Positions 28,021 to 50,260 of a DNA stretch of 50,332 nucleotides are shown piece by piece. This DNA is from a virus: positions 1 through 50,332 of IMG/VR virus record IMGVR_UViG_3300042090_001664; one strand, written 5' to 3'. The position numbers were made by a program, and so were the translations under genes. The notes below the pieces were generated by a model, which saw only the letters and a list, made by a program, of their open reading frames with translations, searched no databases and was not told the DNA's origin. The first letter of the stretch is position 1; each line of letters opens with the position of its first letter.

Positions 28021-28048
28021 GGTCGTCTCCTGGGGCCCGGTCGGGCCC

Positions 28049-28091
28049 TGTCGTCCTCGAGAAGCGTACGGCTGCGCACGCAGCCTCTCAA
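28049..28091 (-). promoter_or_regulatory. Sigma70-like promoter of the antisense lipoprotein gene
   Basis: Read on the minus strand: -35 TTGAGA (28086-28091), 17-base spacer, -10 TACGCT (28063-28068), six bases, then GGACGACA (28056 down to 28049), a sequence shared with the two early promoters at 44 and 50 kb. It lies 29 bases upstream of the ATG. Next to it 28098-28117 holds a gcctgc/gcaggc inverted repeat. Confidence 0.65.
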
Positions 28092-28137
28092 GACTGAGTG
28101 CCTGCGCAGTGCAGGCCTCCGCCCGTAGGTGCCCCCG

Positions 28138-30102
28138 ATGGCCAACCCGAGCCCCGCATTCCAGCTCAGCACCGATGGCGTGACCTGGGGTGCGCCCGGC
28201 GCGAAGATTGCGGTCTCTGGCTCCGCTACGTTATACGCGCGGCTCGCCTCGACCGCGGGGGTGCAGTCGGTTCAGTGGGTCGTCTCGAGCACGGACGAGA
28301 CGACCCCACCGGGCACCTACGCGAACCAGCCGGTCCCGGTCGGGCTCCCCGGGCCGACCGCGGTGGTGACCCTCACGACGCAGGGCGCCGGCACGTGCGG
28401 GATCCTCCAGTGCACGATCAACGGCGGCGTCGTCGGGGTCGTCGGGAACAACTCGAACATCAACTACGCGCTCACGCGCACGACCGCCAAGTGGTACGTC
28501 AGCCCGGAGATCGGGGCGGTCGGCGAGAACATGGAGTCGGACCCGGTGAACGGGTTCGCGGCCTGGCTGAACCCAGCGGTGCGCGCGTACGCGCTGCTCG
28601 CGGCGCCGAGCGTGGCTCCGACCCCGTCGCTCGTGCTCCTCCGCGACACGGGGGGCCAGGGTCGGTGCACGAGCTTCGCGACCGACATCCCGGCGAACGT
28701 GGCCGCGGGGGGCGTCTACCGGCTGCCGGCTGGCAACCAGACCGCGATGGCGGCGAAGGGGGCGTCGCACGCAACGGTCGCGCTCGTGTCGCTCTCGAAC
28801 AGCGGAGCGACCCTCCAGCTCGGCGACGGGGTGGAGATCACCGCCGCGGACTTCCGGAGCGCCTCGCTGGCGAACCTCGGCGTGTCCAACTTCGTGCCGG
28901 TGACTGCGCCGTCGTCGCCGGTGAGCGGGTGGAACACCTTCGCGGATACCGCGGACTACCGCCTGAAGCTCCAGACGACGACAGGGAAGCAGCTCGCCGT
29001 CGGCGTCGGCACGCTCCTGTTCGACCAGACCGTGACCGGAGCCACGATCGGGCAGGACGTCGTCACCGGCAACGGCGTGAACGTGGGGCAGTCCCTGCTC
29101 ATGCGTGCGCAGCAGGGCCAGAGCGTCGGGAGCGGTTCGAACAACAACGGCGGCCCGGTGACGGTAGCGGGCGGCCTCGTCGGCACTGGCGGTACGAGCG
29201 GAACGGGCCTCCAAGGTGCTGCGAGCCTGCAAGGTGGTGGCAGCACGGCGAGCCTTGGCCTCGCGGTTTCCAATACGACCGACACGACGCCGACCACGAT
29301 CTACACGGTCGCGGTGCCAGCAGGTCAGGTGGTGTCCGTCGACTACGAGATCATCGCCAACCTCGCGCCACTCGGCACGAACCCGTGCATCGCGCTGGGG
29401 GTCTTTCGGCGGCGGTTCGTCGCCGCCCGCGTCGGCACCGCGAGCCCCGCCATCAGCAGCTACACCGACGTCACGCAGGGGCAGTCGCCAAACGGTCAAT
29501 ACGCCGTTGGGACGATTACGAACGGGCCGTTTTGGGACGGGCCGGACAACGGGAACAGCGGATCGTTCTCCGCGGCGTTCAACGGGGCCATCACGCACTC
29601 GATCGCAGGGAACTCGATCAACATTGTGGTGCAGGGGTTCCACTCGTCGCCGCCTGCATGGGTCACGCTCAATCCGTACCTCCTGTCGGTCGGCGTCTCC
29701 GGCACGGCCAACAACGGGTCAGGAGTCATCCGGATTCACACAGCGTCTGCGCACGGGCTCGCCTCGGGCGCGCAGGTGCAGATTACAGGTGTCGGCGGAA
29801 CCGTGGAGGCGAACGGGTGGTGGGTCATCACGATCGCCGACAGCACCCACTTCGACCTCACGGGTAGCACGTACACGAACGCCTACACGAGCGGCGGAAC
29901 GGTCACGATCCCAGCGGCGTTCGTGACGTATAGCTCCAACATCTACGTGCTCACCGCTCCGGGTTCTTCCGGTGCGACAGGGCCCGTCGGGACGGGGACA
30001 GGTCTTTTCGACGGCACCTGCACGTGGGCCTACGTAGGGCCCGCTGCGAGCGGCGTTCCCGTCCGCTGGACGCTCGCCGAACTTCACCAGCGGTACGGCT
30101 GA
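28138..30102 (+). CDS. Large fibre-like protein
   Basis: 654 aa from ATG 28138; GTG 28129 is an alternative. The N-terminus (SPAFQLSTDGVTWGAPGAKIAVSG is an Ig-like opening, about 4-27) and following strands are beta sandwich. The middle holds VTGNGVNVGQSLLMRAQQGQSVGSG, a fibre-type Gly/Ser segment. At about 525-590 lies the EANGWWVITIADSTHF module shared with the gene at 25471. The C-terminus TWAYVGPAASGVP recurs in the protein at 7846. Separate beta domains strung together suggest a long fibre or baseplate-appendage protein. Confidence 0.6.
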   Translation: MANPSPAFQLSTDGVTWGAPGAKIAVSGSATLYARLASTAGVQSVQWVVSSTDETTPPGTYANQPVPVGLPGPTAVVTLTTQGAGTCGILQCTINGGVVGVVGNNSNINYALTRTTAKWYVSPEIGAVGENMESDPVNGFAAWLNPAVRAYALLAAPSVAPTPSLVLLRDTGGQGRCTSFATDIPANVAAGGVYRLPAGNQTAMAAKGASHATVALVSLSNSGATLQLGDGVEITAADFRSASLANLGVSNFVPVTAPSSPVSGWNTFADTADYRLKLQTTTGKQLAVGVGTLLFDQTVTGATIGQDVVTGNGVNVGQSLLMRAQQGQSVGSGSNNNGGPVTVAGGLVGTGGTSGTGLQGAASLQGGGSTASLGLAVSNTTDTTPTTIYTVAVPAGQVVSVDYEIIANLAPLGTNPCIALGVFRRRFVAARVGTASPAISSYTDVTQGQSPNGQYAVGTITNGPFWDGPDNGNSGSFSAAFNGAITHSIAGNSINIVVQGFHSSPPAWVTLNPYLLSVGVSGTANNGSGVIRIHTASAHGLASGAQVQITGVGGTVEANGWWVITIADSTHFDLTGSTYTNAYTSGGTVTIPAAFVTYSSNIYVLTAPGSSGATGPVGTGTGLFDGTCTWAYVGPAASGVPVRWTLAELHQRYG

Positions 30103-30123
30103 CCCACCACGAAGGGATCCACG

Positions 30124-31155
30124 ATGTCCTGGTTCAACGACACGATGAAGCGAATGGCGTTCGCCATCGCGATGGGCTTCGGCCTCCTGGCCGTCGTCGT
30201 GGTGCTGTGGCGGAAGACCGAGGTGCCGCCTGTCGTGCCGGCGCCGCAGCTCCCGCCGGTGGTGCACATCGCCGAGAAGGCCACCGGGCCAGGCTTCGAC
30301 CACTCGGCGGCGGCAGCGTCGCTCACGGCGGTGTGGGATGGGCTCTCGACGGACTATCCAGACTCGGGCACCGCGCAGGTCGTCGTGAGCACGCAGACGA
30401 TGGCGGACGTGCTCGTCGTCGCAACCGGGAGCTGGACCGGCACCGTGCAGTTCGAGGCGACCGCCGACCAGACCAACTGGTTTGCGGCGCCGGTCGTGCC
30501 GATCGGCGGCGGGAACATCGTCACGAGCGCGACGGGCGATGGGCAGTGGGTCTTCCAGGTAAGCGGCGCGCAGTCGTTCCGAGCTCGCTGCTCGGCGCTG
30601 AGCGACGCGGGCAGCCCGCCAGTCATCGCGCTCGCGGCCTCGAGCGCGGGCGGCAACACGGGCGGCGCCGGGTCGCAGGTCACCGTCAACAACGATGGCG
30701 GCGCGCCGGTGCCAACCGGCGGCGCCATCGCTCCGGTGGTCTACGACGACGGAGGCACGAGCCTCTCTGGCGACACGGGCGCGACATGGAAGCTCGGAAA
30801 CATCGCGTCGGTCCCATCGGGCGCCAAGGCTGCGATGTTCATGGTGAGCTACTGGGGCGGCGGGACGACGTCGCAGCTGAACTACCGCGTGCGGCTCACC
30901 CACTACACGAGCGACGCCGGCGCGGCCGCGGTGCTGCGCGCGGTCGGGCCCGGCAACCCGTCAGGAACGATCGTCACGCAGACCGCGTACTACCAGACGG
31001 TCACGCTCGCAGACACGGGGTCGGCGCAGGTGAACGCGCCCGTGCAAGTCGACGTCACCGGCGGCGTCGTCGGAGTCGCGCTCGACTTGCAAGAGGCCGT
31101 CGTGTCGCCGACGGATGCCGGCGTCGACACCATCTCTCTGAGCTGGAGCTACTGA
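30124..31155 (+). CDS. Membrane-anchored virion-like protein
   Basis: 343 aa from ATG 30124. A basic start (MSWFNDTMKR) is followed by one strong hydrophobic segment (about 11-29, AFAIAMGFGLLAVVVVLW) and a Pro-rich linker, so the rest would lie outside the inner membrane. Residues about 85-165 hold a beta domain usual in phage tail proteins (ATGSWTGTVQFEATADQTNW; FQVSGAQSFRARCSA), and about 200-343 a second beta domain. A tail-type domain tethered to the membrane is unusual. The stop overlaps the next start (TGATG). Confidence 0.6.
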   Translation: MSWFNDTMKRMAFAIAMGFGLLAVVVVLWRKTEVPPVVPAPQLPPVVHIAEKATGPGFDHSAAAASLTAVWDGLSTDYPDSGTAQVVVSTQTMADVLVVATGSWTGTVQFEATADQTNWFAAPVVPIGGGNIVTSATGDGQWVFQVSGAQSFRARCSALSDAGSPPVIALAASSAGGNTGGAGSQVTVNNDGGAPVPTGGAIAPVVYDDGGTSLSGDTGATWKLGNIASVPSGAKAAMFMVSYWGGGTTSQLNYRVRLTHYTSDAGAAAVLRAVGPGNPSGTIVTQTAYYQTVTLADTGSAQVNAPVQVDVTGGVVGVALDLQEAVVSPTDAGVDTISLSWSY

Positions 31156-31706
31156 TGAAGACCAGGATCCTCGCACTGCTCGCATTCCTCGCACTGCTCA
31201 TCGGGTGCTCGAACGCGCCGTTCGCGCCGGACGCCGGTCCTGGCGTTCCGATGAAGGCGGCGCCGGGCTTCCAGGCCGGGCCGGTGTACCTGAGCTCCCC
31301 GCCGACGCTCTCGAACAACCAGACGACGCCGCTGCTCACCGACTCGCTCGGCAACGCGCAGCAGAACATGGCGACGAAGCTCGCGGGCGAGGACCTCGCG
31401 AACGACGTCATGAAGTCGGAGCTCCGCTACTCCTACCTGCACCAGGCGGGGACGACGGCCGGCGTGACCGTGAAGAGCGGCGCGGGGTTCCTGCACGCGC
31501 TCAACCTCAACACGCCGGTCGCCTCCACCGTGGTGACCCTCTACGACAACACGGCCGCGTCGGGCACGGTCATCGCGGTCATCACGCTGCCCGGCACGCT
31601 CGTGTCCGAGGGCCCGTCGACCGCCATCTACAACGTGTCGTTCACGACGGGCTTGGAGCTCGTGGTCGCGACCGGCGCCGCCGACGTGACCGTGAGCTAC
31701 CGCTGA
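31155..31706 (+). CDS. Lipoprotein with phage beta domain
   Basis: 183 aa. Signal peptide with lipobox LLIGC (Cys18). The mature C-terminal part (about 100-183) carries VKSGAGFLHALNLNTP...VTLYDNTAASGTVIAVITLPG...VSFTTGLELVV...ADVTVSY, a small beta domain frequently found in phage decoration and tail-associated proteins. Its first 13 bases equal those of the gene at 31727. It would be lipid-anchored at the cell envelope. Confidence 0.65.
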   Translation: MKTRILALLAFLALLIGCSNAPFAPDAGPGVPMKAAPGFQAGPVYLSSPPTLSNNQTTPLLTDSLGNAQQNMATKLAGEDLANDVMKSELRYSYLHQAGTTAGVTVKSGAGFLHALNLNTPVASTVVTLYDNTAASGTVIAVITLPGTLVSEGPSTAIYNVSFTTGLELVVATGAADVTVSYR

Positions 31707-31726
31707 AGGAGACTCGGAGAACCGCC

Positions 31727-32167
31727 ATGAAGACCAGGAACCTCGCCCTCGCTCTCGTCGCGTTCGCCCTGTTCGCCGTCGCCATCGTCTGGCGCTCGCC
31801 CGAGCCCATCGGTCCGGTGCCCGACGAACACGTCGTCGAGCAGCGCAACAGCCAGGGCCAGACGCAGACCATCAAGTACACGGTCACCGCCCAGTCGTCC
31901 TACGACATCACGGTCAACCTGGTCTTCCCTGACAACTCGACGCAGAACGGCCAGCACTTCGACATCCACCCCATCTCCGTGAGCGTCGCGCAGGCGCTCG
32001 CCGACGGGGGCGTGGACTCGGGCGCCCAGGAGCTGGTCATGTTCAACAACTGGATCTTCCCGCAGGTCATCGCCATCTGGCAGGGCAACCTGATCGCCGC
32101 GCAGAACCTCGCGGCGGCCGAGAGCCTGACCGCCATCCTGAACGTCCAGCAGACCGTCACGCAGTGA
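31727..32167 (+). CDS. Small membrane-anchored protein
   Basis: 146 aa from ATG 31727. Start MKTRNLALALVAFALFAVAIVW is a single N-terminal anchor without a clear cleavage site or lipobox; the rest is external: VEQRNSQGQTQTIKYTVTAQ, a beta part and a helical end (AAQNLAAAESLTAILNVQQ). The first codons match the preceding lipoprotein gene, suggesting duplication of the leader. The stop overlaps the next start (GTGA). Confidence 0.6.
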   Translation: MKTRNLALALVAFALFAVAIVWRSPEPIGPVPDEHVVEQRNSQGQTQTIKYTVTAQSSYDITVNLVFPDNSTQNGQHFDIHPISVSVAQALADGGVDSGAQELVMFNNWIFPQVIAIWQGNLIAAQNLAAAESLTAILNVQQTVTQ

Positions 32168-34185
32168 GGATCGCTGTGTCCCGATCGGCCTCGCGTGCGC
32201 TCCGCGTGCTGCTCCTGGCGCTCGTGTGCCTGCTGGCGAGTGGCGCGCACGCGACCCCACGCACGCAGATCCCGGGGCAGCGCGCGCAGGTAGCGCAGCT
32301 CCAAAACCTCATTCCCTATTCCGAGGACCTCACCCAGTCGGTCTGGAACGCGTCGAGCTTCGCCGCGACCATTACCGGCAACGCCGTCGCAAACCCGGTG
32401 AACGGCGCCGTTACGGCGTCGCTCATCACGGACAACACATCGAACACGCCGCACGGTGTCTCGCAGACGGTGACCCTCACCAAAGGCGGGATCTACACGC
32501 TCTGCGCGTATGCGAAGGCGGCGGCGAGCGGCCGGTACATCGCCCTCACGGCGAACAGCGTCGGCGTGATCCTGATCTACGACCTGTCTGCCGGCGTGTA
32601 CGGGACGGTCCAAGGGAGCCTGGCGAGCACGTTCATCGGCGCGTCGATCGTTCCGGTGCCGAATCAGTCCGGCTGGTGGCACGTCTGCCTGACGGCGAAC
32701 AACTCGTTCGCAACGAGTGTCGCGACGAGGATCTACACGGCCACCAGCCTCCTCGCCTACACGTACGCGGGCACGGGCTCCGCGCAGCTCTACGTGTGGG
32801 GCGTGCAGCTCACGCAGAGCTGGGGACCGCCGCAGAACTACGTCCAGACCACGAGCGCTGGCGTGGGCTCCGGCCCCGTGCGCGCGTCGCTGCTGCCGCA
32901 GAACCAGAACTGGCTGACCAACTCGCTGGGCACGTCGTCGAGCTGGGGCAACTCGAACACCTCGGAAACGACCAGCGCGGCGACAGCTCCCGACGGGACC
33001 AACACGGCGACCGCGCTGATCTCCACCACGGTCTCGAGCGTCGGGCACTACGCGCTCCCGAGCAACGACCTCGTTCCGATCAACCAGTACCAGACGTTCT
33101 CGATCTACGCGAAGCCGGCCGCAGTCACGTACATCACGCTCCTCGAGGACGGGACGTTTGCCGAGGCGGCCTACCTCCTCAGCGGCGCGGGCTCGGTCAA
33201 CAACGTGTCGTCCGGCGGCAACAACGCGACCGTCGGGATCGTCGCTCTGCCGAACGGTTGGTATCGGCTGTGGATCACGGCTCTCCGACTCCACAATGCA
33301 AGTTCGATCCGCATTTACTACAACAGCACGTCGACGCCAGGCGGCTCCTACGCCGCGGCCGACACGGTGAACCCGCAGGTGTATGTGTGGGGCGCGCAGA
33401 TCACGAACACCAACGCGCCCGGCCCGTACCAGCCGACGACCTCGGTCGCGCTCAACGTGCTCGGCACGCCGCGGTACGTGCCACCGGTCACGCAGAACTT
33501 CCTGACCTTCTCGCAGGCGTTCGACAACGCGGCGTGGACCAAGACGGCGAGCACCATCAACACGGCGGCGCTCCTCGCGCCGGACGGCACGCTCACCGGG
33601 GAAGCCGTCGTCGCGAACACCACGTCGTCTACGCTCCACTATGTCGCAGCGACGGAGCCGGTCCTCAGCGGGAAGACGGTGACGTTCAGCGTCTACGCGC
33701 AAGCCGGCGCGGTTTCGTGGATCCTGCTCGCCACGCAGAATGCGAATTTCCTCCAGAACTTCAACCTGAGCACGTGCGTGACCGGAACGGGGAGCGGACT
33801 CGGCGCGAGCACCCAGCTCGTCAACGGGTGGTGTCGTTGCTCGATGGTGGTGACGGGCTCCTCATCCGTTGCGCCCGGGGTCCGCATCTACGCGGCGAAC
33901 GCGAACAACGGCTACACGTACGCGGCCGGTAACACGACGTCCCCCCAGGTGTATCTCTGGGGCGCGCAGTACGTGCAGGGAAACTGGGCCGGCCCGTACA
34001 AGGCCACGACGTCGACCGCGACCGACACGGCGACGGCGAACAACGGCTCGATCCGCTGGGTCGCGCAGGGCGCCCCGCCGGTGGCGGCGCTCCTGCCGGC
34101 GCTCGCCGCGCTCGCGCGCGTCCTCCGTCGGCGCGGACGAAAACCTGCCAACGACAACGCTTCGCAGGGTAGGATGGCGGCGTAA
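32164..34185 (+). CDS. Exported repeat protein with three fibre-type domains
   Basis: 673 aa from GTG 32164. A signal peptide (RALRVLLLALVCLLASGAHA, cleavage after about 30) is followed by three repeats of about 200 aa (about 46, 243 and 443 onward), each beginning QN-L-x-x-S-x-x-F/L...W, holding APDG-T and a Y/F-S-x-YAK/Q segment, and ending Y-V/L-WG-x-Q...Y-x-x-TTS. Such domains look like carbohydrate-binding fibre modules. Residues 640-660 are a short hydrophobic stretch (AALLPALAAL) followed by RRRGRK, recalling C-terminal sorting tails. A fibre-type protein made for export from the host is unexpected. Confidence 0.6.
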   Translation: MRIAVSRSASRALRVLLLALVCLLASGAHATPRTQIPGQRAQVAQLQNLIPYSEDLTQSVWNASSFAATITGNAVANPVNGAVTASLITDNTSNTPHGVSQTVTLTKGGIYTLCAYAKAAASGRYIALTANSVGVILIYDLSAGVYGTVQGSLASTFIGASIVPVPNQSGWWHVCLTANNSFATSVATRIYTATSLLAYTYAGTGSAQLYVWGVQLTQSWGPPQNYVQTTSAGVGSGPVRASLLPQNQNWLTNSLGTSSSWGNSNTSETTSAATAPDGTNTATALISTTVSSVGHYALPSNDLVPINQYQTFSIYAKPAAVTYITLLEDGTFAEAAYLLSGAGSVNNVSSGGNNATVGIVALPNGWYRLWITALRLHNASSIRIYYNSTSTPGGSYAAADTVNPQVYVWGAQITNTNAPGPYQPTTSVALNVLGTPRYVPPVTQNFLTFSQAFDNAAWTKTASTINTAALLAPDGTLTGEAVVANTTSSTLHYVAATEPVLSGKTVTFSVYAQAGAVSWILLATQNANFLQNFNLSTCVTGTGSGLGASTQLVNGWCRCSMVVTGSSSVAPGVRIYAANANNGYTYAAGNTTSPQVYLWGAQYVQGNWAGPYKATTSTATDTATANNGSIRWVAQGAPPVAALLPALAALARVLRRRGRKPANDNASQGRMAA

Positions 34186-34210
34186 CCGGCCGCCCACTCG
34201 AGAGGATCCC

Positions 34211-35083
34211 ATGACCACACGTCGCGCGACCGGCCTCATCTTCGACCAGCCGCACCAGAAGCCGAAGACGCTCTACCGGGCGACGCCGGGCTTCAAGCTG
34301 TCCGACCTCGTGCCGTGGGACCTCTCGAGCTTCTGCCCACCGCCTCCGGACCAGGGCAAGCTCGGGCAGTGCACCGGCGTCTCGTTCGTCGGGTCGTGTA
34401 AGACGTACGACAATGCGAACGGGCAGCCCAGCGCGCTCGGGAGCTGCCTCGCGGCATACTGGGGCGGCCGGTTCGAGGACTGGCTCGCGAGCGGTGGCGG
34501 CGCCGGGCTCTCGGGTGACCAGCTGGTTCAGGCCTTCATCGCGCAGGACACCGACTGCGGGAGCTCGCACGCGTCGGTCTGCCTGGGCGTGAGCCAGCTG
34601 GGGCTCCCGCCGGCCTCCGCCTGGCAGGGGAGCTACGACGACACGGGCTCGCCGCAGGACCAGTTCCGCATGCGGCCCGACGCCGAGGCGCAGCGGCTCG
34701 GCTGGGACACGCGCTCGGAGCTCGTCCGGCTCGGGCTCGACGACGAGGACACGGACGCGAAGATCGTCGACCTGAACCACGCCGGCATGAACAAGCAGCC
34801 GATCGACATCGGGCAGATCGTCGACGAGCAGTTCTGCTCGGAGGAGTTCGACCCAAACGTGGCCTACGCGCCCGACGTGACCAAGCCCGCGGGCGGGCAC
34901 GCGCTCTACCTCGTCGCGATGCGGATCAACCCGCAGACGGGCGAGCGCGAGTACAAGGAGGCCATGAGCTGGGGGCCAGGCGCCTACGCGTTCATCTGGG
35001 TCCCGGAGAAGACGGTGGTGGCGCCGAGCACGCAGCTCACCATCATCAAGCGAGCGCCCGTGCTCGTCGAGGCGGCAGCGTGA
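34211..35083 (+). CDS. Papain-like (C1-type) cysteine protease homologue
   Basis: 290 aa from ATG 34211. Family landmarks: Gln48 and Cys54 in DQGKLGQCTGVSF, His230 in AGGHALYL, and a C-terminal SWGPGAY motif (253-259). The Asn before SWG in papain (NSWG) is Met252 here, so the triad may be altered. No signal peptide is seen. Located at the head of the lysis-region gene string and overlapping the next start by four bases (GTGA). It could process fibres or act on host proteins; activity uncertain. Confidence 0.65.
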   Translation: MTTRRATGLIFDQPHQKPKTLYRATPGFKLSDLVPWDLSSFCPPPPDQGKLGQCTGVSFVGSCKTYDNANGQPSALGSCLAAYWGGRFEDWLASGGGAGLSGDQLVQAFIAQDTDCGSSHASVCLGVSQLGLPPASAWQGSYDDTGSPQDQFRMRPDAEAQRLGWDTRSELVRLGLDDEDTDAKIVDLNHAGMNKQPIDIGQIVDEQFCSEEFDPNVAYAPDVTKPAGGHALYLVAMRINPQTGEREYKEAMSWGPGAYAFIWVPEKTVVAPSTQLTIIKRAPVLVEAAA

Positions 35084-35394
35084 GGGCCCTGGTCCTGTTC
35101 GCGCTCGTGCTCGCGGGGTGTTCCGGGTGCCACGAGGCACCCGGACCGCTCACCACCCCGCTCGGGTCACAGCCGGTCTCGACCGTGCGCCCTGGCGCGC
35201 TGACGGCATACGCGCCGACCTGCACCGGGGCGTGCTCGAGGGGCCACGACCTCGCCTGCCCGAGCGCGGCGCCGTCGCCGGGCGGGGTCGCCTGCGTGGA
35301 CAGGTGCACGCAGAGCTCGCTCGCGCCGTGGGATGTCACGTGCATGGCGGCGGCAACGACGTGCGCCACCTTCGACGCGTGCGGGTCAAGATGA
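35080..35394 (+). CDS. 8-Cys lipoprotein, paralogue of 8810-9049
   Basis: 104 aa from GTG 35080. Signal peptide with lipobox VLAGC (Cys14). After a Pro/Thr linker the eight-Cys pattern PTC-x3-C ... AC ... AC-x3-C ... TC ... TC ... AC repeats that of the lipoprotein at 8810-9049, including V-D-R-C against T-D-R-C and TCMA. Two related lipoproteins in one phage, 26 kb apart. The stop overlaps the next ATG. Confidence 0.7.
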   Translation: MRALVLFALVLAGCSGCHEAPGPLTTPLGSQPVSTVRPGALTAYAPTCTGACSRGHDLACPSAAPSPGGVACVDRCTQSSLAPWDVTCMAAATTCATFDACGSR

Positions 35395-35633
35395 TCCGCC
35401 GGGCACTCCTCGCGGTGGTCGGTCTCGTCCTCGCGGCGAGCTGCGCGCCGCTTCCGATCCTCGGCACGCCGGCGCAGCGCTGCGACGTGCACTGCGCCGG
35501 GCACATGTGCTGCGACCAGGGCGATGTGTGCGGCGGCACGGAGGTGGGGTGTCCTGCCGGGCAGTGCTGCTACACCGGCGACATCTCCGACTTCGGCGCG
35601 CGGCGCACGCATCCGCAGCACCCCGCGCCGTGA
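35391..35633 (+). CDS. Small Cys-rich exported protein
   Basis: 80 aa from ATG 35391 (ATGA overlap). A signal peptide ends at LAASC (Cys18; weak lipobox). The mature part has eight Cys as C-x3-C-x4-CC-x5-C-x6-C-x4-CC (31 to 60), a dense knot-like arrangement, and a His/Pro-rich tail. The double CC spacing recalls granulin or knottin folds, by pattern only. Role unknown; possible envelope factor or lysis accessory. Confidence 0.6.
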   Translation: MIRRALLAVVGLVLAASCAPLPILGTPAQRCDVHCAGHMCCDQGDVCGGTEVGCPAGQCCYTGDISDFGARRTHPQHPAP

Positions 35634-38323: not shown

Positions 38324-38343
38324 CCGCGCGCAGCGACCGCACT

Positions 38344-42702: not shown

Positions 42703-43139
42703 GACCCACCGACCTTCGGGCGGATCTCGGCCGCAGCGACGAGGTCGAACACCGCCTTGGCGGTCGGGTGCATCTTCACCCCACCGCCGATCTTGGTGAG
42801 CATGCTGAGCACGAGGCCGCCCTGATCGCTGTTCATCGGCCCGTTCGTGACCTTGCACCCGTGCGGGCAGACCATGAGCGGGTTGTCTACCCCGCCAAAC
42901 AGTCGGCAGATTCCGGGCCTCTCGTCGTACGACGAGCACCGGCCGTCGACGAGGTTCGTGCACCGGCCGTCCTTCACCGCCGGGGTCGCGCCCGCGGCGA
43001 CCATTCGGAGGTACTCGGCCTTCGACATCGGGATCGGCCCGCACGTGTCCGTGCAGAGCCCCTTGCAGTCGACGACCGGGAGCGTGCGGTAGATCGTGTC
43101 GATGGCCTCGAGCGCCAGCTTGAGCTTGCGGCGGTTCAT
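42699..43139 (-). CDS. YkgJ-like Cys-cluster protein
   Basis: 146 aa from ATG 43139. Cysteines in the YkgJ pattern: CKGLCTDTCGPIPMS, then RCTNL, RCSSYDERPGICRLFG and CPHGC. This family is predicted to bind zinc or an Fe-S cluster. The ATGA overlap with the ATPase links it to the recombination operon; a role in Fe-S supply to the neighbouring nuclease is conceivable but unproven. Confidence 0.65.
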   Translation of the reverse strand: MNRRKLKLALEAIDTIYRTLPVVDCKGLCTDTCGPIPMSKAEYLRMVAAGATPAVKDGRCTNLVDGRCSSYDERPGICRLFGGVDNPLMVCPHGCKVTNGPMNSDQGGLVLSMLTKIGGGVKMHPTAKAVFDLVAAAEIRPKVGGS

Positions 43140-44284
43140 CGGGGGAAGTCCTCCGGGTCCGTCGGCGCGGGCCCGTCGCCGAACGCGTCGTAGGTGGCCG
43201 CTGCCATCGGATCGGTCGGTGGGTTGGAACTCGCGGGCTGCGACCCCGGCGCCGCGGGTGCGCCGTTCGCTGGCGCGGCCTGGGCTGCCTTCGCCTTCGC
43301 GGCGGCGTCCGCGATGATGCGCTTCCGCCGTGCGGCGAGCCACGCGGTGGCGTCCTGGCGCAGCCCGTCATGCGGGTCGCGGTCGATGCGCTGCCCGAGC
43401 GCGTCGCAGGCGTAGACGTCGGTGCACGCGCCGATGGCCTTGCGCCACGCGCCCGCGCGCGGGTTGCCGTCCTCGATCGCGAGGATCGGGTCCTGCTCGA
43501 TGGCGACCTTCGGCTGCTGCGCCGGCGCGCGCTCGCCGTCCTGGCACCAGGCGACGACATTGTTCGCGAGGCCCTCGCCGGGGTTGTCGTAGAAGGCGCC
43601 GACCGCGAGGTCCTCGAAGTCGATGACGCGCCCCTTCTCGATGGTGAACCGCACGCGGCCCTTGCCGAGGCTCTCCATGCGGGCGAAGAGGTCTGGCTCG
43701 TAGCTGATCCCGTCGCGCGCGACCTCGCCGAGGCCGACCTTGACCGGGACCTTCTTTCCGCCCTGCTCCTCGAGCACCCACTCCTGCTTCTGCCGCACTG
43801 TGAAGATCACGTGCGCCTTCGTCTGCATCACGCGCTCGATCGCGCGATTGTAGATCGGGCTCTGCTCCTTCCAGCCGGTCGAGAACTTGTTCGCGCTCGA
43901 GGTCTTGTCGACGACCTCGAGTACGCCACCGATCCCGTTCCACATGTGGGAGAGCGAGTCGATGACGATGACCCCCGCACCCTGCTGCTCGCAGTAGGTC
44001 AGCGCCGCGTCGTAGGCCTGCGTCGAGTTGTCCTCGGGCGGCATCACCACGTGCTTGAACTTGAAGCCCTTGCCGCTCTTCGGGCTGAAGGCGTAGCGGA
44101 GCGCGCTCTTGTGCTCGGTGTCGATCACGTAGAGCGGCCCGAGCTCGAGCTTCTCCACCATCGCCGCCCCGAGCATGAGCGCGGTGTAGCTCTTCCCTGC
44201 GCCGGAGGATCCGGCGATGCCGATGCGCGCGAGGATCTGCTCGCGTACCGCATCGACCGCTTCGAACTTGTACGTGCGTCCCAT
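43136..44284 (-). CDS. RecA-like recombinase/ATPase (Sak4/AAA_24 type)
   Basis: 382 aa from ATG 44284 (GAGG nine bases before). Walker A GSSGAGKS at 25-32 and Walker B GVIVIDSLSHMW at 104-115, with a Gln-containing switch (VRQKQEWV) further on, fit the phage RecA-like single-strand annealing ATPases. The C-terminal 70 residues are disordered Ala/Pro-rich. With the RecB-like nuclease it would form a recombination pair for replication or repair. The frame is open further upstream (see 44285-44465). Confidence 0.7.
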   Translation of the reverse strand: MGRTYKFEAVDAVREQILARIGIAGSSGAGKSYTALMLGAAMVEKLELGPLYVIDTEHKSALRYAFSPKSGKGFKFKHVVMPPEDNSTQAYDAALTYCEQQGAGVIVIDSLSHMWNGIGGVLEVVDKTSSANKFSTGWKEQSPIYNRAIERVMQTKAHVIFTVRQKQEWVLEEQGGKKVPVKVGLGEVARDGISYEPDLFARMESLGKGRVRFTIEKGRVIDFEDLAVGAFYDNPGEGLANNVVAWCQDGERAPAQQPKVAIEQDPILAIEDGNPRAGAWRKAIGACTDVYACDALGQRIDRDPHDGLRQDATAWLAARRKRIIADAAAKAKAAQAAPANGAPAAPGSQPASSNPPTDPMAAATYDAFGDGPAPTDPEDFPR

Positions 44285-44465
44285 GGTCTCGTTCCTCGGT
44301 TGGTTGCGGGCGGTCAGCCCATCTTGATCGACTTCGCGGCTTTGGTCGTGAGCGGCACCTCGGGGCGGCGGCGCTGCTCCGAGCGGCAGCGGTTGGGAGT
44401 CTCCGGTGTCGCCGGCAGAAGCGGCCTTCCCCGGTGGCGTTCCGGTGTCTCCTGCCGAGGCAGCT
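44285..44465 (-). other. 181-base gap with a degenerate direct repeat
   Basis: No convincing gene. On the minus strand, in frame with the ATPase, the translation would contain KAASAGDTG twice (at about 44401-44470), a degenerate tandem repeat. An N-terminal extension from near 44488 would overlap the next gene's end by 23 bases and lacks a ribosome site as good as that of ATG 44284. Reads as a leader or repeat remnant. Confidence 0.4.
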
Positions 44466-44639
44466 TTACTTGCTCGCATTGGGGCCATCGTTCACGCGCA
44501 TCGAACAGTCGGCCCCATAGCTTGTGCCGTCGATGCCGATCTGGTTCGCCCCCCTCGGCACGGTGATGCGCAGGGTGACCGGCGGGATGTAGAGTGCGGG
44601 CGGCGCCGGCGCGGCCTTCGGCTGCTTCGTCTTCTTCAC
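44466..44639 (-). CDS. Small operon-leading protein
   Basis: 57 aa from GTG 44639, with GGAGG four bases upstream. Basic, Pro/Ala-rich N-terminus (KKTKQPKAAPAPP), then a beta-like segment (VTLRITVPRGANQIGIDGTSYG) resembling a short surface strand pair. First gene after the shared promoter, 26 bases from its repeat. Function unknown; could be a regulator. Confidence 0.55.
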   Translation of the reverse strand: MKKTKQPKAAPAPPALYIPPVTLRITVPRGANQIGIDGTSYGADCSMRVNDGPNASK

Positions 44640-44664
44640 GTGTCCTCCAGCGCATCGGCGTGGC

Positions 44665-44684
44665 CGTGCGCGTGCTTGTCGTCC
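44665..44684 (-). repeat. 20-bp leader repeat, copy 1
   Basis: Identical to 50205-50224, both on the minus strand at the presumed +1 to +20 of a promoter. A third, partial copy (first eight bases) is at 28049-28056. Confidence 0.75.
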
Positions 44685-44720
44685 GGGGCTGTAGTGTAAC
44701 GATCCGACTGCGGATCTCAA
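44665..44720 (-). promoter_or_regulatory. Early promoter and leader of the recombination operon
   Basis: On the minus strand: -35 TTGAGA (44715-44720, containing the stop of the upstream dpdA-like gene), 16-base spacer, -10 TACACT (44693-44698), eight bases, then GGACGACAAGCACGCGCACG (44684 down to 44665) at the likely start of the transcript. The same 20 bases begin at the equivalent place at 50 kb. Confidence 0.7.
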
Positions 44721-45538
44721 GCGACATTCGCCGCGGTTGGCGCGAGTCTCGCGAGGAGGTTCTCTCGCCACTCGAGGGACCATGACGCGCAGTTGTTGCA
44801 ATGCTGGTGGCCGGTCTTCCGACCGAAGCCGGGCTTGTCGTGGCCCTCGAGCGGGGGCCGGTGGCGCGCGGCGTCGCTCCACGCCATCGAGTCGGCCGAC
44901 GCGAGCTCGCCGGCGCACGCCTCGAGCCCGTCGACCTTGAAGCCGAAGCCGTGGAGGCGCAGCCCGTCGACCGCCAGCGTGTGGATGATGGTCTTGCCGG
45001 TGAGGGTGTCCTGCCGACGGCAGACCGTGCCGACCCCGACGAGCGGCTCGGCGCGCAGGTCGACCCCTGCCTTGTCGTAGAGCTCCTGGCACGTCCAGTA
45101 GGAGCCGATGCTCCAGCCCTGGAGCACGGGGATGAATGGGATGTCGGGCGCGAGCGCGCGCAGCTCGAGGAAGTTGTCCACGGTGCGGCGCTGGTGCTCC
45201 TCTACCGAGAGGCCGGTGCCGGCGAACGTCACCCCCTTGTGCGTGCCGCCGTGGATCACGACCGGCTCACACATCCAATCGCCGGGCGCAGCGAACAGCA
45301 GGCCCCCGATCTCGTCGCGGTACCGGCGCACCTCGGCAACGTACTCCTTCGCACTGATGGTCCAGCGCCCGTGCATCTGGAGCTCGGAGAAGCCGCCCGA
45401 GTCGAGCGCCCATTCGCCGAAGGCGCGCGGGAGCTTCTTGACCTGCGAGAGCGTCCGGCGCGAGACGAACAGCGGCACGTCGAGAAAGCGCGCATCCTCG
45501 AGCCAGTGCGGCTTCGCCGTTCCGAGCATGAAACGCAT
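44717..45538 (-). CDS. dpdA: DpdA-like DNA guanine transglycosylase
   Basis: 273 aa from ATG 45538. TGT-family features: Asp46 in LDSGGFSEL, APGDWMCEP at 84-92 (Asp87, Cys90), VLQG at 138-141, VGVGTVCRRQ near 167-176, HGFGFKVDGL and DSMAWS near 216-221 (candidate nucleophile Asp216), and a HCNNC site (246-250). These match stand-alone phage DpdA enzymes, which replace guanine in DNA by a 7-deazaguanine. Biosynthesis genes for the base are not in the window. It shields phage DNA from restriction. End of the modification operon, overlapping the next promoter. Confidence 0.7.
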   Translation of the reverse strand: MRFMLGTAKPHWLEDARFLDVPLFVSRRTLSQVKKLPRAFGEWALDSGGFSELQMHGRWTISAKEYVAEVRRYRDEIGGLLFAAPGDWMCEPVVIHGGTHKGVTFAGTGLSVEEHQRRTVDNFLELRALAPDIPFIPVLQGWSIGSYWTCQELYDKAGVDLRAEPLVGVGTVCRRQDTLTGKTIIHTLAVDGLRLHGFGFKVDGLEACAGELASADSMAWSDAARHRPPLEGHDKPGFGRKTGHQHCNNCASWSLEWRENLLARLAPTAANVA

Positions 45539-45541
45539 GGT

Positions 45542-45763
45542 CTACTCCTCGTCGATGGTGGGTGGTGGCGGTCGCGGTGGCATCGCGGTCGTCTTCTCGG
45601 GTGCGTGCTGCGCGCATCGGGTGCCACGCGCGTGGTCGGCACACATCGGCCGCGCGCAGCGCACGCCGCCCGGGCCGGCGCCGTCGCAGGCGCGCACCGC
45701 GGGCTGGCCGCAGCGGTAGCAGTCGGGTCGTCGTCGGCCGCAGATGAAAACGTCGATGCTCAC
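45542..45763 (-). CDS. Cys-rich small protein
   Basis: 73 aa from GTG 45763 (GTGA overlap). Repeated Cys (CYRCGQP, RACDG, CARPMCADHARGTRCAQH) fit a zinc-binding (B-box-like) arrangement; Pro-rich acidic end. It lies three bases before the dpdA-like start. Function unknown. Confidence 0.5.
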   Translation of the reverse strand: MSIDVFICGRRRPDCYRCGQPAVRACDGAGPGGVRCARPMCADHARGTRCAQHAPEKTTAMPPRPPPPTIDEE

Positions 45764-46023
45764 GAGACCGCCTCGCGGTCCGGCTCCTCGCGCCGGAGCC
45801 CGCGAATGTAGAGCTTCCAGCGGAGCGCCTCGGTCGCCGTCCCCGCCATGAGGACGTAGCGGGTCGCCACGTCGGGTTGGACGGCCTCCGCCGCCACGGG
45901 CTCGAGGTCGAGCGTCACGGTGCCGGCGCCGCTACGGTGGAAGAACACCATGGCGCCACAGCGGGAACAGCTCCCGACGTGGGGCGCCGTCCCTCCGTCG
46001 GCGATGCGCTTGCGGATCTTCAC
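45760..46023 (-). CDS. Small protein with one C-x2-C site
   Basis: 87 aa from GTG 46023, chosen because GGAGG lies four bases before it. One CSRCG site, then beta-like GTVTLDLEPVAAEAV and RYVLMAGTATEALRWKL. Gap 46024-46096 before it holds a small hairpin (GCGATG-CTTC-CATCGC) and no gene. Unknown function. Confidence 0.5.
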   Translation of the reverse strand: MKIRKRIADGGTAPHVGSCSRCGAMVFFHRSGAGTVTLDLEPVAAEAVQPDVATRYVLMAGTATEALRWKLYIRGLRREEPDREAVS

Positions 46024-46096
46024 TTGGCCTCCGGCACCAGCCACGGATCGCCAGCGATGGAAGCATCGCCGGTGAAGCGCCAGGGTGACGCGCTGT

Positions 46097-47092
46097 TCAC
46101 GACGTCTTCCCGAGAGCTTCGCAAGGATCGCCAAACATCGCCAACGTCTTACCTTTCGCGTTCGGTTCGGCGGCGGCCAGGTTGCGTGCCGCCATCTGGT
46201 AGTAGCTGGCCTTCAGCTCGGCGCCGACGAAGCGCCGACCCTCTTGCAAGGCGACGTAGCCCTCACTGCCGATGCCTGCGAAGGGCGAAAGCACGACATC
46301 ACCGGGCGCCGTCCATAGTCGGATGGCGCGTCGGATGACGCCGAGTTGAAGCGGTGCGATGTGACGCTCGTCATCGCCATCCCTGGCCGCCATGTATTGC
46401 AGCGTGTCGCCTTGGTCGATACCGCTTGCGTCCGTCTCGGTGTCGCCCTTGCGCGGGTTGCGGAAGGCTGTGAAACCCTCGCCATCTTCGCCTTCCGAGG
46501 TCGCCCAGACGGGGCTGGCGTACCGTTGCCATCGCTCGACGGGGAAGTCGTCGTGCGTGTGGCTGATGGGCTTCGTGTTCTCGCCGGGCTTCACCACGAC
46601 GACGAGGTAGTCGGCCATCCCCTGCCGTGACGCAACAGAGTCCTTGCGAAGCTGCATGTGAAGCAGCCCCTTCGCCTTCGTTCGCTGCATCTGCATGACG
46701 GGGTCCTTCCAGATCGTGACTTCGCTGTGGAAGACGAACCCGGCCGCCTGAGCGGCTCGGATCATCTCGCCGCGGAAGTCGCGCAGCCCGATGTAGCCGT
46801 CGCGCACCTTGCTCGTCGGAATCAGCATGCAATGGATCGCCATCAGCCGACCGGGGCGAAGCACGCGAAACAGCGACGGCATCAAGTGACCGAAGTGCTC
46901 CCCAAATTCGCCGTGAGTGCGACAATTTCCAAGGTCGCGGTCGGAGTTGGAGTAGCAGTAAAGGAATGCGAAGGGCGGCGAATACACCGAGAAGTCGATC
47001 GACGACTCAGGGAGCGATGCGCACACTTCGACCGTGTCGGCGTTGTAGAGATGCCAGCCATTGCCACTGGCCTGATCGAGAACCTTGGTCAT
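46097..47092 (-). CDS. DNA methyltransferase (SPPF, N4/N6 type)
   Basis: 331 aa from ATG 47092 (ATGA overlap with the helicase). Motif IV is SPPF at 38-41, typical of N4-cytosine and some N6-adenine enzymes, near the N-terminus, and the AdoMet motif I FAGIGSEG is near 271-278, giving the beta-class order (IV before I). No separate target-recognition signature. Paired with an SF2 helicase, a set common in phages, where it protects DNA from restriction. Confidence 0.75.
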   Translation of the reverse strand: MTKVLDQASGNGWHLYNADTVEVCASLPESSIDFSVYSPPFAFLYCYSNSDRDLGNCRTHGEFGEHFGHLMPSLFRVLRPGRLMAIHCMLIPTSKVRDGYIGLRDFRGEMIRAAQAAGFVFHSEVTIWKDPVMQMQRTKAKGLLHMQLRKDSVASRQGMADYLVVVVKPGENTKPISHTHDDFPVERWQRYASPVWATSEGEDGEGFTAFRNPRKGDTETDASGIDQGDTLQYMAARDGDDERHIAPLQLGVIRRAIRLWTAPGDVVLSPFAGIGSEGYVALQEGRRFVGAELKASYYQMAARNLAAAEPNAKGKTLAMFGDPCEALGKTS

Positions 47093-48495
47093 GGAGCCTC
47101 TGGTCCGGTTCGGACCCATTGGGGGACCGTCATCGTGACGGTCGGTTCGTAGGCGTCTGTCTCTCGTTCGGCGCCGCGCACGTTGTGGCGCACGGTCGCT
47201 GCCGTGTAGCGCCGCATCTCGTCGGCGAGCTTCGTCGCGTCGGCTTCCTTGCGGCGTAGATTGGCCAACACGGCGCCTTCCAACTCCGCGACGATGATGT
47301 GACTGTGAACCTCGCGAGTCTGGCCAAACCGCCAGTTACGACGCACCGCCTGGTACCACTGCTCGAAGCTGTGAGAGACACCGACGAATAGGGACCGTGC
47401 GCAATGCTGGGCATTTACGCCGAACCCGGCGACGCTCGGCTTGGTTACGATAACCCGTGACCGACCGTGCAGCCAGTCGACCATGCGCGCCCGCTTCTCG
47501 GTTGGGGTCATGGCGCCCGTGATCTCAACGGCGCCGTGAATGGCCGCCGTAAGGGCCTCGCTCTCGGCGTTTAGCTCGCACCATACCATCCACGATTCCG
47601 TCGGCTCCGATGCGACGACATCGGCCGCGAGTCGAACGCGGTCCTTCATCGAAGCACGCCGAGCATCGCGTTGCTCGCCGAGCGTGATAGCTGGCGCAGC
47701 GAAGAGGAGCCCATGCGCTCGCGCCTGCTCGGCCGTGGCGGCGACGCGGTGCTCGTGCATGACGAGCGGCGGCAGGTCGTAGCCGATGTCGTCGTAGCCG
47801 ATGTCGGACGGACGCTTGACAAGTGCCGCCCACGAGCAAACCCAGCGCCAGAATGCTTCTCGCGCGTGGCCCTTGATGTACCAGTCCTGCGTGCTGCCGC
47901 CGTCGTGGGCGAAGAACATGGCCAGCATCTCGGTGCGTCGCATGACGCCCAAGAACTCTGCATGATTGCCAAGCTCGGTGAAGTCGTTCGGAGACGGTGT
48001 TGCCGTGCATGCGAGCCGGTACGGCGTCGCCGCGAAGCTATCGATCATGGCCGTGCGCGTCTCCCCGTCGCTCGACTTGAGGATCGATGATTCGTCGAGC
48101 ACGACGCCAACGAACGCCGCCGGGTCGAAGTGATCGCGCATCTCATAGTTCGTGATGAGGATCGGGGCGTCCGACTCGGCAAGCGACCGCGCGTAGACGA
48201 CCGGGACGCCGATGGCGGCACCTTCCTCGACAGTCTGCTCTGAGACGGCAAGCGGCGCGAAGATGATGATGCGACCCTTCGTTCGCTTCGCGACCTGAGC
48301 CGCCCACATGAGCTGCATGCGGCTCTTCCCGAGCCCGGTGTCGGCGAACAGGGCCGCGCGCCCGCGTCGCAGCGCCCACGTCGTCAGGTCGGCCTGGAAG
48401 GGGAAAAGATGCGGGGACTCGATGGTTCTGCGCAGCTTGAACCCGGCGACCGGCGCGACGAGAGCCTTGGTGCGTAGAAAATCCTGATAGCTCAC
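47089..48495 (-). CDS. SF2 DEAD/SNF2-like helicase
   Basis: 468 aa from GTG 48495. Walker A ADTGLGKS (51-58), motif II LDESS (133-137), motif III TATPSPND (163-170) and motif VI QAVRRNWRFGQ in the C-terminal half are all present. Size suggests a minimal DNA translocase. Coupled to the methyltransferase by a four-base overlap; it might open or remodel DNA for modification or early replication. Confidence 0.75.
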   Translation of the reverse strand: MSYQDFLRTKALVAPVAGFKLRRTIESPHLFPFQADLTTWALRRGRAALFADTGLGKSRMQLMWAAQVAKRTKGRIIIFAPLAVSEQTVEEGAAIGVPVVYARSLAESDAPILITNYEMRDHFDPAAFVGVVLDESSILKSSDGETRTAMIDSFAATPYRLACTATPSPNDFTELGNHAEFLGVMRRTEMLAMFFAHDGGSTQDWYIKGHAREAFWRWVCSWAALVKRPSDIGYDDIGYDLPPLVMHEHRVAATAEQARAHGLLFAAPAITLGEQRDARRASMKDRVRLAADVVASEPTESWMVWCELNAESEALTAAIHGAVEITGAMTPTEKRARMVDWLHGRSRVIVTKPSVAGFGVNAQHCARSLFVGVSHSFEQWYQAVRRNWRFGQTREVHSHIIVAELEGAVLANLRRKEADATKLADEMRRYTAATVRHNVRGAERETDAYEPTVTMTVPQWVRTGPEAP

Positions 48496-49007
48496 GTCGC
48501 CTCGTAGCCCGGATCGCAGGTGTCACACCATGCTCCCGGCTTGACACTGCGGCCTTCCGCCGTGGGATCGGCGACGACATGCGTCGACAGTTCTCCGCAG
48601 CCGTCGCATACGAACCACTTCAGCGCGTTGAACGCGACGCGTGCAATGGGTTTTTGGTCCGTGTCGGGGTGAGACTTGTGAGCGAGATCGTCCAGGTTGG
48701 GCAGCCAACGCGTCGCCACCTCGACGGGCGTGTCGGCAAGGACGTTCAGCAGAAGCGCAAGCGCGTGAGCGTTGGATGCCTTCGCGAGCTCGCCAGCCCG
48801 CACGAGGATGGCGCAGAGCTGTTCCTCACCCTCAACATCGTGGCGAACACGTGCCGTGAGGTCGGAAAGCGTCATCGTCGCGATCACGCCGACATCTGCC
48901 CCATGGCTCACGTTGTGCTCCGTCTGCGAGTCCGTGGACGCGCCCAGTTCGTCACGATCGACCAGATATTTGTCGAAGAACCCGGCCAAATTCTCGAACG
49001 TCGTCAT
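48492..49007 (-). CDS. Unknown protein with C-terminal zinc ribbon
   Basis: 171 aa from ATG 49007 with GAGGAGAG upstream. Helical core (SDLTARVRHDVEGEEQLCAIL; ALALLLNVLADTPVEVATRWLP) and a C-terminal zinc-ribbon-like CDGCG...WCDTC (about 138-165). Unknown function; its stop overlaps the helicase start. Confidence 0.55.
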   Translation of the reverse strand: MTTFENLAGFFDKYLVDRDELGASTDSQTEHNVSHGADVGVIATMTLSDLTARVRHDVEGEEQLCAILVRAGELAKASNAHALALLLNVLADTPVEVATRWLPNLDDLAHKSHPDTDQKPIARVAFNALKWFVCDGCGELSTHVVADPTAEGRSVKPGAWCDTCDPGYEAT

Positions 49008-49054
49008 GTGATCTCTCCTCGGTGAATGATTGTCGCCCATGTCGCGCGCTCCCA

Positions 49055-49348
49055 TCATGCGCCCGCCTCCCTTGCAGCGAGTTGCTCCGCGAGCGTCCCG
49101 TGAATGTCGTAGGCAGACGGCTTAGGAGCCTCGAGCGGCTCGGCCCAGAAGCGGCGCCCGTCGTGGCGGTGCGCGGCGGTGAGGATGCGCGCGACCCGCT
49201 CCGCGTCGTCCTGGAGCAGCGGAGGTCGCGCGCGGTCGACGCGGGGTAGCCGGTCGATGACCCGGAAAGATGCGCCGTCCACGCCGACCCGGCCGAGGCT
49301 CGAGCCGGGCGCGTCGCGCGAGCACACCACGAAGAGGGTGGGCGTCAT
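49055..49348 (-). CDS. Unknown small protein
   Basis: 97 aa from ATG 49348 (ATGA overlap with the next gene upstream). TLFVVCSRDAPGSSLG at the start and mixed alpha/beta content (ERVARILTAAHRHDGRRFWAEP). Not recognised. The gap 49008-49054 after it holds a ribosome site only. Confidence 0.45.
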   Translation of the reverse strand: MTPTLFVVCSRDAPGSSLGRVGVDGASFRVIDRLPRVDRARPPLLQDDAERVARILTAAHRHDGRRFWAEPLEAPKPSAYDIHGTLAEQLAAREAGA

Positions 49349-49521
49349 CGCGGCCTCAGCAGCATGACGCACTTCTTCCCGTCACTGGCGTCTTCGAGGA
49401 CCACGTCGGCGCACTCGCCGGTGCAGTCGCACCCCTCGGTGAAGACGGGCGCGTCTGGCGGCATCTGCCGCAACCGCTCGATGAGCTGTGCCACGGTGAG
49501 GGTGTCGGTGTCGTCGCTCAT
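49345..49521 (-). CDS. 58-aa protein with Cys motif
   Basis: 58 aa from ATG 49521. SDDTDTLTVAQLIERLRQMP then FTEGCDCTGECADVVLED, three closely spaced Cys as C-x1-C-x3-C. Helix plus strand layout resembles small phage proteins of unknown role. Both ends overlap neighbours by four bases. Confidence 0.5.
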   Translation of the reverse strand: MSDDTDTLTVAQLIERLRQMPPDAPVFTEGCDCTGECADVVLEDASDGKKCVMLLRPR

Positions 49522-50150
49522 CGGAGATGCTCCTGAAGGTTGGTGCAGTCGTAGCTCTTCGTCTTGCCGCGGATGAACGCGTCGAGCGCGCTGGCGTTGA
49601 CGACCTGGACCACGCGCGCAGCCTTCGGCTCGTCGGTGCACTTGCGGGCGTCGAAGATGTGCGCGACGTCGATCCCGTAGTGGCAGAGCGGCTCCGGCAA
49701 GTCCGGCGTCCAGAACGACCCGCGCACCGAAATCTGGTGGTGGCGGTGACAATCGGCGGGGGCCGATTCCTGGCACATGAGCACGAGCCGATGGCCGGCG
49801 GCGTACCAGGTCCGGAGCGTGTGGATCCCCTCCGGGCGAGGCCCCGGCACTCCGCCCCCCGGCCCGCCGAGCACGTGCCCCGCGTAGCGGTAGCGGGAGC
49901 CGAGCGCGTCGGCGAGCTGGTAGCGCCTGAAACCGTCTCTGACATAGAGCGGCTTCCGGCTCCCCGCCGGCGGCGCATGCTCGGGACCGGCCAACGCCCG
50001 GCAGTCGACGAGCACAGCCTTCAGGCCGAGCACGATGTTGAACAGGTCCTGCGGCTCATCGAGCGAGCCAGGCTGGCGCTTGCTCCCCTTGTACGGCGCG
50101 TCGCCGTAGCCGATCGAAAATAGAATCCCCGGCGTCTTCTTCTTCGTCAT
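49518..50150 (-). CDS. DUF488 family protein
   Basis: 210 aa from ATG 50150 (GGAGGG at correct spacing). DUF488 landmarks: FSIGYGD near the start, VDCR (48-51), SRKPLY and YAGHVLGG, and the signature LMCQESAPADCHRHH (124-138) holding Cys126, Cys134 and His135. The family is of uncertain biochemistry, often linked to nucleic-acid or DNA modification genes. First gene of the early operon that ends with the DpdA-like gene. Confidence 0.75.
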   Translation of the reverse strand: MTKKKTPGILFSIGYGDAPYKGSKRQPGSLDEPQDLFNIVLGLKAVLVDCRALAGPEHAPPAGSRKPLYVRDGFRRYQLADALGSRYRYAGHVLGGPGGGVPGPRPEGIHTLRTWYAAGHRLVLMCQESAPADCHRHHQISVRGSFWTPDLPEPLCHYGIDVAHIFDARKCTDEPKAARVVQVVNASALDAFIRGKTKSYDCTNLQEHLR

Positions 50151-50204
50151 CGTCCCTCCGATGGTACAACGCATCGACCCCGGCGCCGAGAGTCGGCCCG
50201 AGGT

Positions 50205-50224
50205 CGTGCGCGTGCTTGTCGTCC
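50205..50224 (-). repeat. 20-bp leader repeat, copy 2
   Basis: Identical to 44665-44684, in the same place relative to a promoter. Confidence 0.75.
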
Positions 50225-50260
50225 TCGGAGCAAGGTAGCGCTCCGCGGGTGACCTGTCAC
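50205..50260 (-). promoter_or_regulatory. Early promoter and leader of the modification operon
   Basis: On the minus strand: -35 GTGACA (50255-50260, holding the stop codon of the upstream partial gene), 17-base spacer, -10 TACCTT (50232-50237), seven bases, then GGACGACAAGCACGCGCACG (50224 down to 50205). It lies 55 bases before the DUF488 ATG. Confidence 0.7.

Follow-up and report, generated by a model that had tools for sequence, protein, structure and literature searches.

A recurrent bulged-G hairpin before the early genes of two related uncultured phages, possibly read by a trans-acting factor

In an uncultured phage and its sole detected relative, most gaps between early genes contain one compact hairpin that is conserved as sense RNA, ends directly before the Shine-Dalgarno sequence (SD) and carries a nearly invariant bulged G. 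The best explanation overall, which features of the sequence give a probability of roughly 0.55, is that this bulged-G hairpin would be read by a trans-acting factor and thereby control early mRNAs gene by gene. Alignment of 15 copies defines its architecture: a stem P1 (GCGCA/YGCGT), a stem P2 of about 9 bp, a one-base bulge on the 3' side, a stem P3 of 4-5 bp and a short loop. Packing follows the order stop codon, hairpin, SD and start codon, with the stop codon directly against the stem and usually 6-15 nt between the hairpin match and the start codon.

The window, the whole stretch of 50,332 bases, forms the first part (bases 1-50332) of the record of an uncultured phage, which is 82,332 bases long, with a GC content of 69%. 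A tail sheath, a baseplate hub and a major head protein are encoded, so the phage is predicted to be contractile-tailed. Queries of viral_contigs with the MCP, sheath, helicase, small structural protein and DpdA recovered a single relative, IMGVR_UViG_3300035695_000001 (G001; 162,811 bases, 163 kb), with 73% identity in the head (capsid) protein and 63% in the sheath, and a search of genome_contigs yielded zero relatives. Among cultured phages the MCP and sheath were unmatched; only a helicase of a widespread kind was matched. The phage group has no cultured member in the collections searched. As a negative control, 16 viral contigs were used that share the exact 16-mer GCGCACGACCCCGGGG and are unrelated to the window phage. 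The term early denotes non-structural blocks of small genes, assigned by position and gene content rather than by expression.

The original prediction placed promoters on the minus strand at 28049-28091, 44665-44720 and 50205-50260, and promoter-like pairs stand exactly there, with -35 and -10 hexamers spaced 16-17 nt at all three sites (sigma70-type promoters have 16-18 nt) and with start sites that are predicted. The features of these sites are as follows:

28063-28091, minus strand: promoter-like pair 1 by sequence, -35/-10 TTGAGA-N17-TACGCT
28021-28056, minus strand: leader 1, with GGACGACA, a simple hairpin GGGCCC-GACC-GGGCCC (28048-28033, no bulge), an SD and ATG at 28020
44693-44720, minus strand: promoter-like pair 2 by sequence, -35/-10 TTGAGA-N16-TACACT
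44640-44684, minus strand: leader 2, with the 5' tail GGACGACAAGCAC, a truncated hairpin (44671-44650), an SD and GTG at 44639
50232-50260, minus strand: promoter-like pair 3 by sequence, -35/-10 GTGACA-N17-TACCTT
50151-50224, minus strand: leader 3, with the 5' tail GGACGACAAGCAC, a full hairpin, the SD GGAGG and ATG at 50150
50169-50211, minus strand: the full hairpin of leader 3, with P1 GCGCA/TGCGT, a 1-nt 3' bulge A, P2 CGACCTCGG/CCGGGGTCG, the bulged G near 50184, P3 GCCGA/TCGGC and the loop CTC
50205-50224, minus strand, and the same at 44665-44684: the 20-mer, composed of a 13-nt 5' tail, the 5' arm of P1 and two more bases

On the minus strand, six bases separate the -10 box from GGACGACA at site 1 (28091-28049), while eight and seven bases precede GGACGACAAGCACGCGCACG at site 2 (44720-44665) and site 3 (50260-50205), respectively. 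A start sequence shared by all three had been proposed; the identity is long at sites 2 and 3 and shrinks to an 8-mer at site 1. The 20-mer common to sites 2 and 3 was verified at 44665 and 50205, and its random-like recurrence was not seen: these are its two occurrences in the full 82,332-base record, with no further site at up to three mismatches. Leader 1 (MFE -13.5, z -1.5) precedes a 97-aa lipoprotein-like ORF. The hairpin of leader 2, GCGCACGGC-CAC-GCCGATGCGC, has P1, an A bulge and a short P2, lacks P3 and the bulged G, and scores 23.4 bits to the hairpin model (folding z -2.8). The gene nearest to the second promoter is a 57-aa ORF (44639-44466), and the recombination genes that this promoter was said to drive (AAA/Sak4-like and PD-(D/E)XK) lie further downstream. 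Leader 3 reaches 56 bits (MFE -37.2, z -3.2), and its full element begins 13 nt from the presumed transcript start. The spacers of promoters 1 and 2 each hold a perfect 6-4-6 inverted repeat, GGCTGC-GTGC-GCAGCC (28070-28085) and GATCCG-CAGT-CGGATC (44699-44714), which differ in sequence. A DpdA-family gene of 7-deazaguanine DNA modification (44717-45538, minus strand; Pfam PF23859, 243 bits) has helicase and DNA methylase genes nearby.

GCGCAC, with which the 20-mer ends, is found again in the minus-strand early block (50-60 kb), where it forms the 5' arm of a hairpin in the majority of gaps. There the hairpin again ends directly before an SD, and mostly no promoter is present, which does not support the view of a signal special to three promoters. 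A covariance model (R1) trained solely on the 15 window-phage copies gave 29 matches in G001 at E < 0.002, comprising 28 in early blocks and one weak match outside; relaxing the threshold to E of about 0.03 brought the early-block copies to 33, and a retrained model added two weak ones. The repertoire is thus about 50 copies: 15 full and one truncated in the window phage and 33 in G001. The 33 copies of G001 are plus-strand and fall into two blocks (1-21 kb, 149-162 kb); almost every one directly precedes a gene start. In the 16 unrelated phage records R1 found two single weak matches, compared with 16 in the window phage and 30 in G001, and the retrained model found zero matches in 152 kb of unrelated phage records. 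By sequence, the element is restricted to the early blocks. Co-directional gaps of at least 40 nt contain the element in 13 of 14 early cases versus 0 of 17 elsewhere in the window phage (p = 7e-8) and in 30 of 40 versus 0 of 41 in G001 (p = 6e-14), counts that may be slightly off since they depend on home-made gene calls. Four copies are promoter-proximal (50164 and 51552 in the window phage record, 6938 and 12339 in G001) and have no upstream gene to protect; therefore, the hairpin belongs to the leader of the downstream gene. At G001 positions 3966, 6216, 6981 and 12390, a second small hairpin stands between element and SD (e.g. GGCGGCTTGTGCCGCC after 12390).

Conservation of the hairpin follows the rules of RNA pairing. 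In the window phage, 12 of 18 pairs change on both sides, a value equalled by none of 500 shuffles and by no slid register, and the G001 matches on their own show such changes in 13 of 18 pairs; in P1 the sequence itself is conserved. Across the apical 11 bp of 48 copies, 491 pairs are Watson-Crick, 28 are G.U, none is A.C and 9 are others, whereas chance hairpins of the same genomes contain 232 G.U versus 210 A.C. Of the 48 copies, 47 have a one-nucleotide 3' bulge, and its base is G in 46 of them, mostly 3-5 bp below the loop and under a purine-pyrimidine (R-Y) pair; bulge bases of the control hairpins (C 123, G 104, A 75, T 62) show no comparable G bias, and the slight preference of the covariance model for G.U pairs and a bulged G is worth a few bits, with most scores exceeding 25. 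The imbalance between G.U and A.C indicates that selection acts on the transcribed strand, with the hairpin kept as sense RNA. A DNA palindrome would treat both mismatches alike; a DNA reading is therefore disfavoured for the hairpin, including the common operator that had been suggested. The accompanying proposal that the transcripts share a 5' end is supported, together with a role at the RNA level, in the form that the 20-mer consists of the tail and the opening arm of a hairpin that covaries and lies before the ribosome-binding site (RBS).

The 5' tail introduces a second signal, GGACGAC. This 7-mer has 40 sites in the record, 9 intergenic and 31 coding. Six of the former and none of the latter have a TANNNT box 5-10 nt upstream (background 0.6%; p = 2e-5 by Fisher's test), so its occurrence behind a -10-like box exceeds chance. 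The recurrence of the shared start next to -10 boxes in the rest of the record was thus borne out, with six promoters rather than three. The additional cases are:

51610, minus strand, window phage record, outside the window: GGACGAC promoter with an upstream TANNNT box
61487, plus strand, window phage record, outside the window: GGACGAC promoter with an upstream TANNNT box
78782, minus strand, window phage record, outside the window: GGACGAC promoter with an upstream TANNNT box
12339, plus strand, G001: intergenic GGACGAC preceded by TGCTAGACA
122071, plus strand, G001: intergenic GGACGAC preceded by TGCTAGACA
127691, minus strand, G001: intergenic GGACGAC preceded by TGCTAGACA

The 7-mer may be a preferred initial transcribed sequence, a single-stranded 5' handle beside the hairpin, or a DNA site. 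At G001 6938, the hairpin lies within about 2 bases of the presumed start and GGACGAC is absent; the hairpin can therefore do without it. Against the reading of a factor-recognised leader element stands that in three promoter leaders of the window phage (28048, 44671 and 61487) the hairpin is simple or truncated and the bulged G missing, and that for short leaders, among them 61487 and 78782, folding is no better than that of shuffled sequences. The similar placement of GGACGAC in nine promoters of the two phages is what a DNA-level element would predict, with either the 7-mer or the palindrome as operator or stoperator for a DNA-binding repressor, but the G.U pairs and the one-sided bulge point to selection on the transcribed strand only. 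Such an element is highly improbable, though less so for GGACGAC alone. Some antitermination systems load at a shared 5' leader sequence, and the GGACGAC leader would fit this mode: each hairpin, whether between promoter and first gene or between genes, would then be an attenuator that terminates unless a phage antiterminator allows read-through. The U-tract that accompanies the GC hairpin of intrinsic terminators and attenuators is absent, however, the 12 nt that follow the stem containing 2.3 T on average, with a GGAGG-type SD in its place, which makes attenuation very unlikely and disfavours the antitermination or termination signal of the original prediction. As a separate observation, G001 has about 50 TGCTAGAC[AT] sites (e.g. 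6921, 12323, 94879, 100140 and 104021), and inverted pairs ACTGTCTAGCA-N-TGCTAGACAGT often coincide in part with extended -10-like boxes. This repeat resembles an operator present at many promoters and was not seen in that form in the window phage.

That the bulged G is kept suggests that a factor recognises the hairpin and that more than bare stability is at stake; from the sequence features together, the hairpin probably acts after transcription and is read by a protein or nuclease. A generic stabiliser or insulator, protecting mRNA ends or separating translation units without specific recognition, would be consistent with the GC-rich stems, with the stable loops (UUCG/GNRA-type in 15 of 48 copies) and with positions right after stop codons and at 5' ends. 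The constancy of the 3' bulge, its G and the P1 sequence go beyond the needs of bare stability, and SD accessibility is equal with the hairpin native (0.457), shuffled (0.461) or deleted (0.468), so that exposure of the SD by the hairpin is ruled out and the stabiliser appears improbable. The main rival is a translational operator, in which a phage or host RNA-binding protein on the hairpin covers or frees the adjacent SD and early genes are switched together. A near-invariant bulged G below a short loop resembles protein-recognition hairpins, and the SD adjoins the hairpin in nearly all copies, promoter-proximal ones included; on the other hand, the SD lies outside the hairpin and tens of sites per genome would need saturating. 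A binding protein is putative, with the following candidate genes assigned by Pfam:

61529-62221, plus strand, window phage record: PHAX-domain protein gene
134575-135348, minus strand, G001: PHAX-domain protein gene

Both proteins exceed the Pfam cut-off for the PHAX RNA-binding domain (38.5 and 27.9 bits), and none of the 16 unrelated phage records has a match. The two are not detectably alike by blastp, and that of the window phage is unmatched in cultured phages; the GGACGACGAG leader at 61487, which starts with GGACGAC, has the gene of this protein as its first gene. As candidates for the factor they are a lead only. Taken together, a shared translational operator is possible though on the unlikely side. 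Unlikely as well, as judged from sequence features, is a new regulatory RNA family in which one dedicated phage RNA-binding protein or nuclease, possibly the PHAX-domain protein, reads the hairpin before nearly every early gene; if true, most of the early programme would be switched post-transcriptionally as a single RNA regulon.

Within control by a trans-acting factor, we favour processing or protection of early mRNA, ahead of a shared translational operator; of the roles originally suggested, RNA processing stays ahead. Transcripts probably begin at or near GGACGAC and continue into a GC-rich hairpin whose 3' end lies directly upstream of the SD, and the same hairpin would follow between most consecutive early genes, with or without a promoter. 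A phage-encoded or host protein may recognise the bulged-G hairpin and act gene by gene, with cleavage or protection at each copy dividing the long early transcripts into mRNAs of gene size, whose ends would be defined and stable. By analogy this branch is the most likely one, although it is put forward tentatively. In T7-like phages, RNase III processing sites are hairpins in the early-operon leader and between genes, and the present hairpins likewise occupy early leader and intergenic positions in transcript orientation. T7-type sites have a double-stranded stem of about two helical turns; here the paired region adds up to about 18-20 bp and is interrupted by one or two bulges. A stem of this length is near the lower limit for RNase III, and a bulged G is not required by this enzyme. 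Unlike T7 sites, the element has a single compact consensus, in which P1 is conserved and the bulged G nearly invariant, lies directly against the SD, is present in 15 and 33 full copies in the two genomes, and is known here from sequence alone.

RNA phage coat-protein operators of the MS2 and PP7 type, which occur once per genome and have a bulged A on the 5' side, are similar as small hairpins with one bulged purine near the loop beside a start site; they differ from the tens of copies with a 3'-side bulged G in a DNA phage. Integron-like attC recombination sites between gene cassettes resemble the element in forming gene-hairpin arrays of one orientation with unpaired bases within the hairpin, and the hairpin 3' end GCGTTRGG is similar to the attC core. 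Membership in this class, with its cognate tyrosine integrase and RYYYAAC and GTTRRRY ends, is largely refuted: no tyrosine recombinase (PF00589) match was obtained in either record, both of which may be fragments, no conserved RYYYAAC was found at the 5' end, elements also stand at promoters, and the G.U bias indicates RNA. The nearest described phage feature is the ESAS. The start-associated sequences (SAS) and extended start-associated sequences (ESAS) of cluster K mycobacteriophages are repeated inverted repeats just upstream of many start codons (PMC3203893, PMC12699233), an arrangement shared by the present element. Departures within ESAS do not support RNA base-pairing, so that its authors favoured DNA-binding sites (PMC3203893), and its function still awaits testing (PMC12699233), whereas the covariation and G.U bias seen here strongly support RNA. 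In place of the GGGATAGGAGCCC-like SAS at the RBS, a GCGTYGRAGG-type sequence follows the hairpin in most copies, and in place of 17-bp inverted repeats with non-RNA changes, compensatory changes affect 12-13 of 18 pairs. In Rfam no covariance model was reached at its gathering score, and an E-value scan yielded one chance microRNA match only; the element, known from just two genomes, both uncultured, would thus represent a further form of phage early-mRNA hairpins outside Rfam families. For repeated cis-elements before phage genes, such as ESAS, a function has long been lacking, partly through the ambiguity between DNA and RNA. Here, about 50 copies settle that question, since they covary as sense-strand RNA and share a bulged base that hardly varies; the bulged G allows a one-base test, and with a factor recognising it, many transcripts could be controlled by means of a single small RNA tag.

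Two further observations lie outside the window. Between the divergent early blocks of the window phage record, 1.4 kb (60112-61486) have no called genes and contain repeats of TTATCCGGCCCTGAGCCGTTGCGCGT. In both phages, a peptidyl-tRNA hydrolase (PTH2)-like gene is a candidate for +1 programmed frameshifting (76658-77024, plus strand, in the window phage record; from 137690 downwards, minus strand, in G001), with a TTGACA-type promoter just upstream. The PTH2 match reaches 29.7 bits for the G001 copy and falls below the threshold for that of the window phage. At the putative site, CGC-TGA closes the short ORF MNSS(M/L)R, while the +1 frame reads on through EAVHVPPAVPAAPVLHH, identical in both phages, into the PTH2-like protein.
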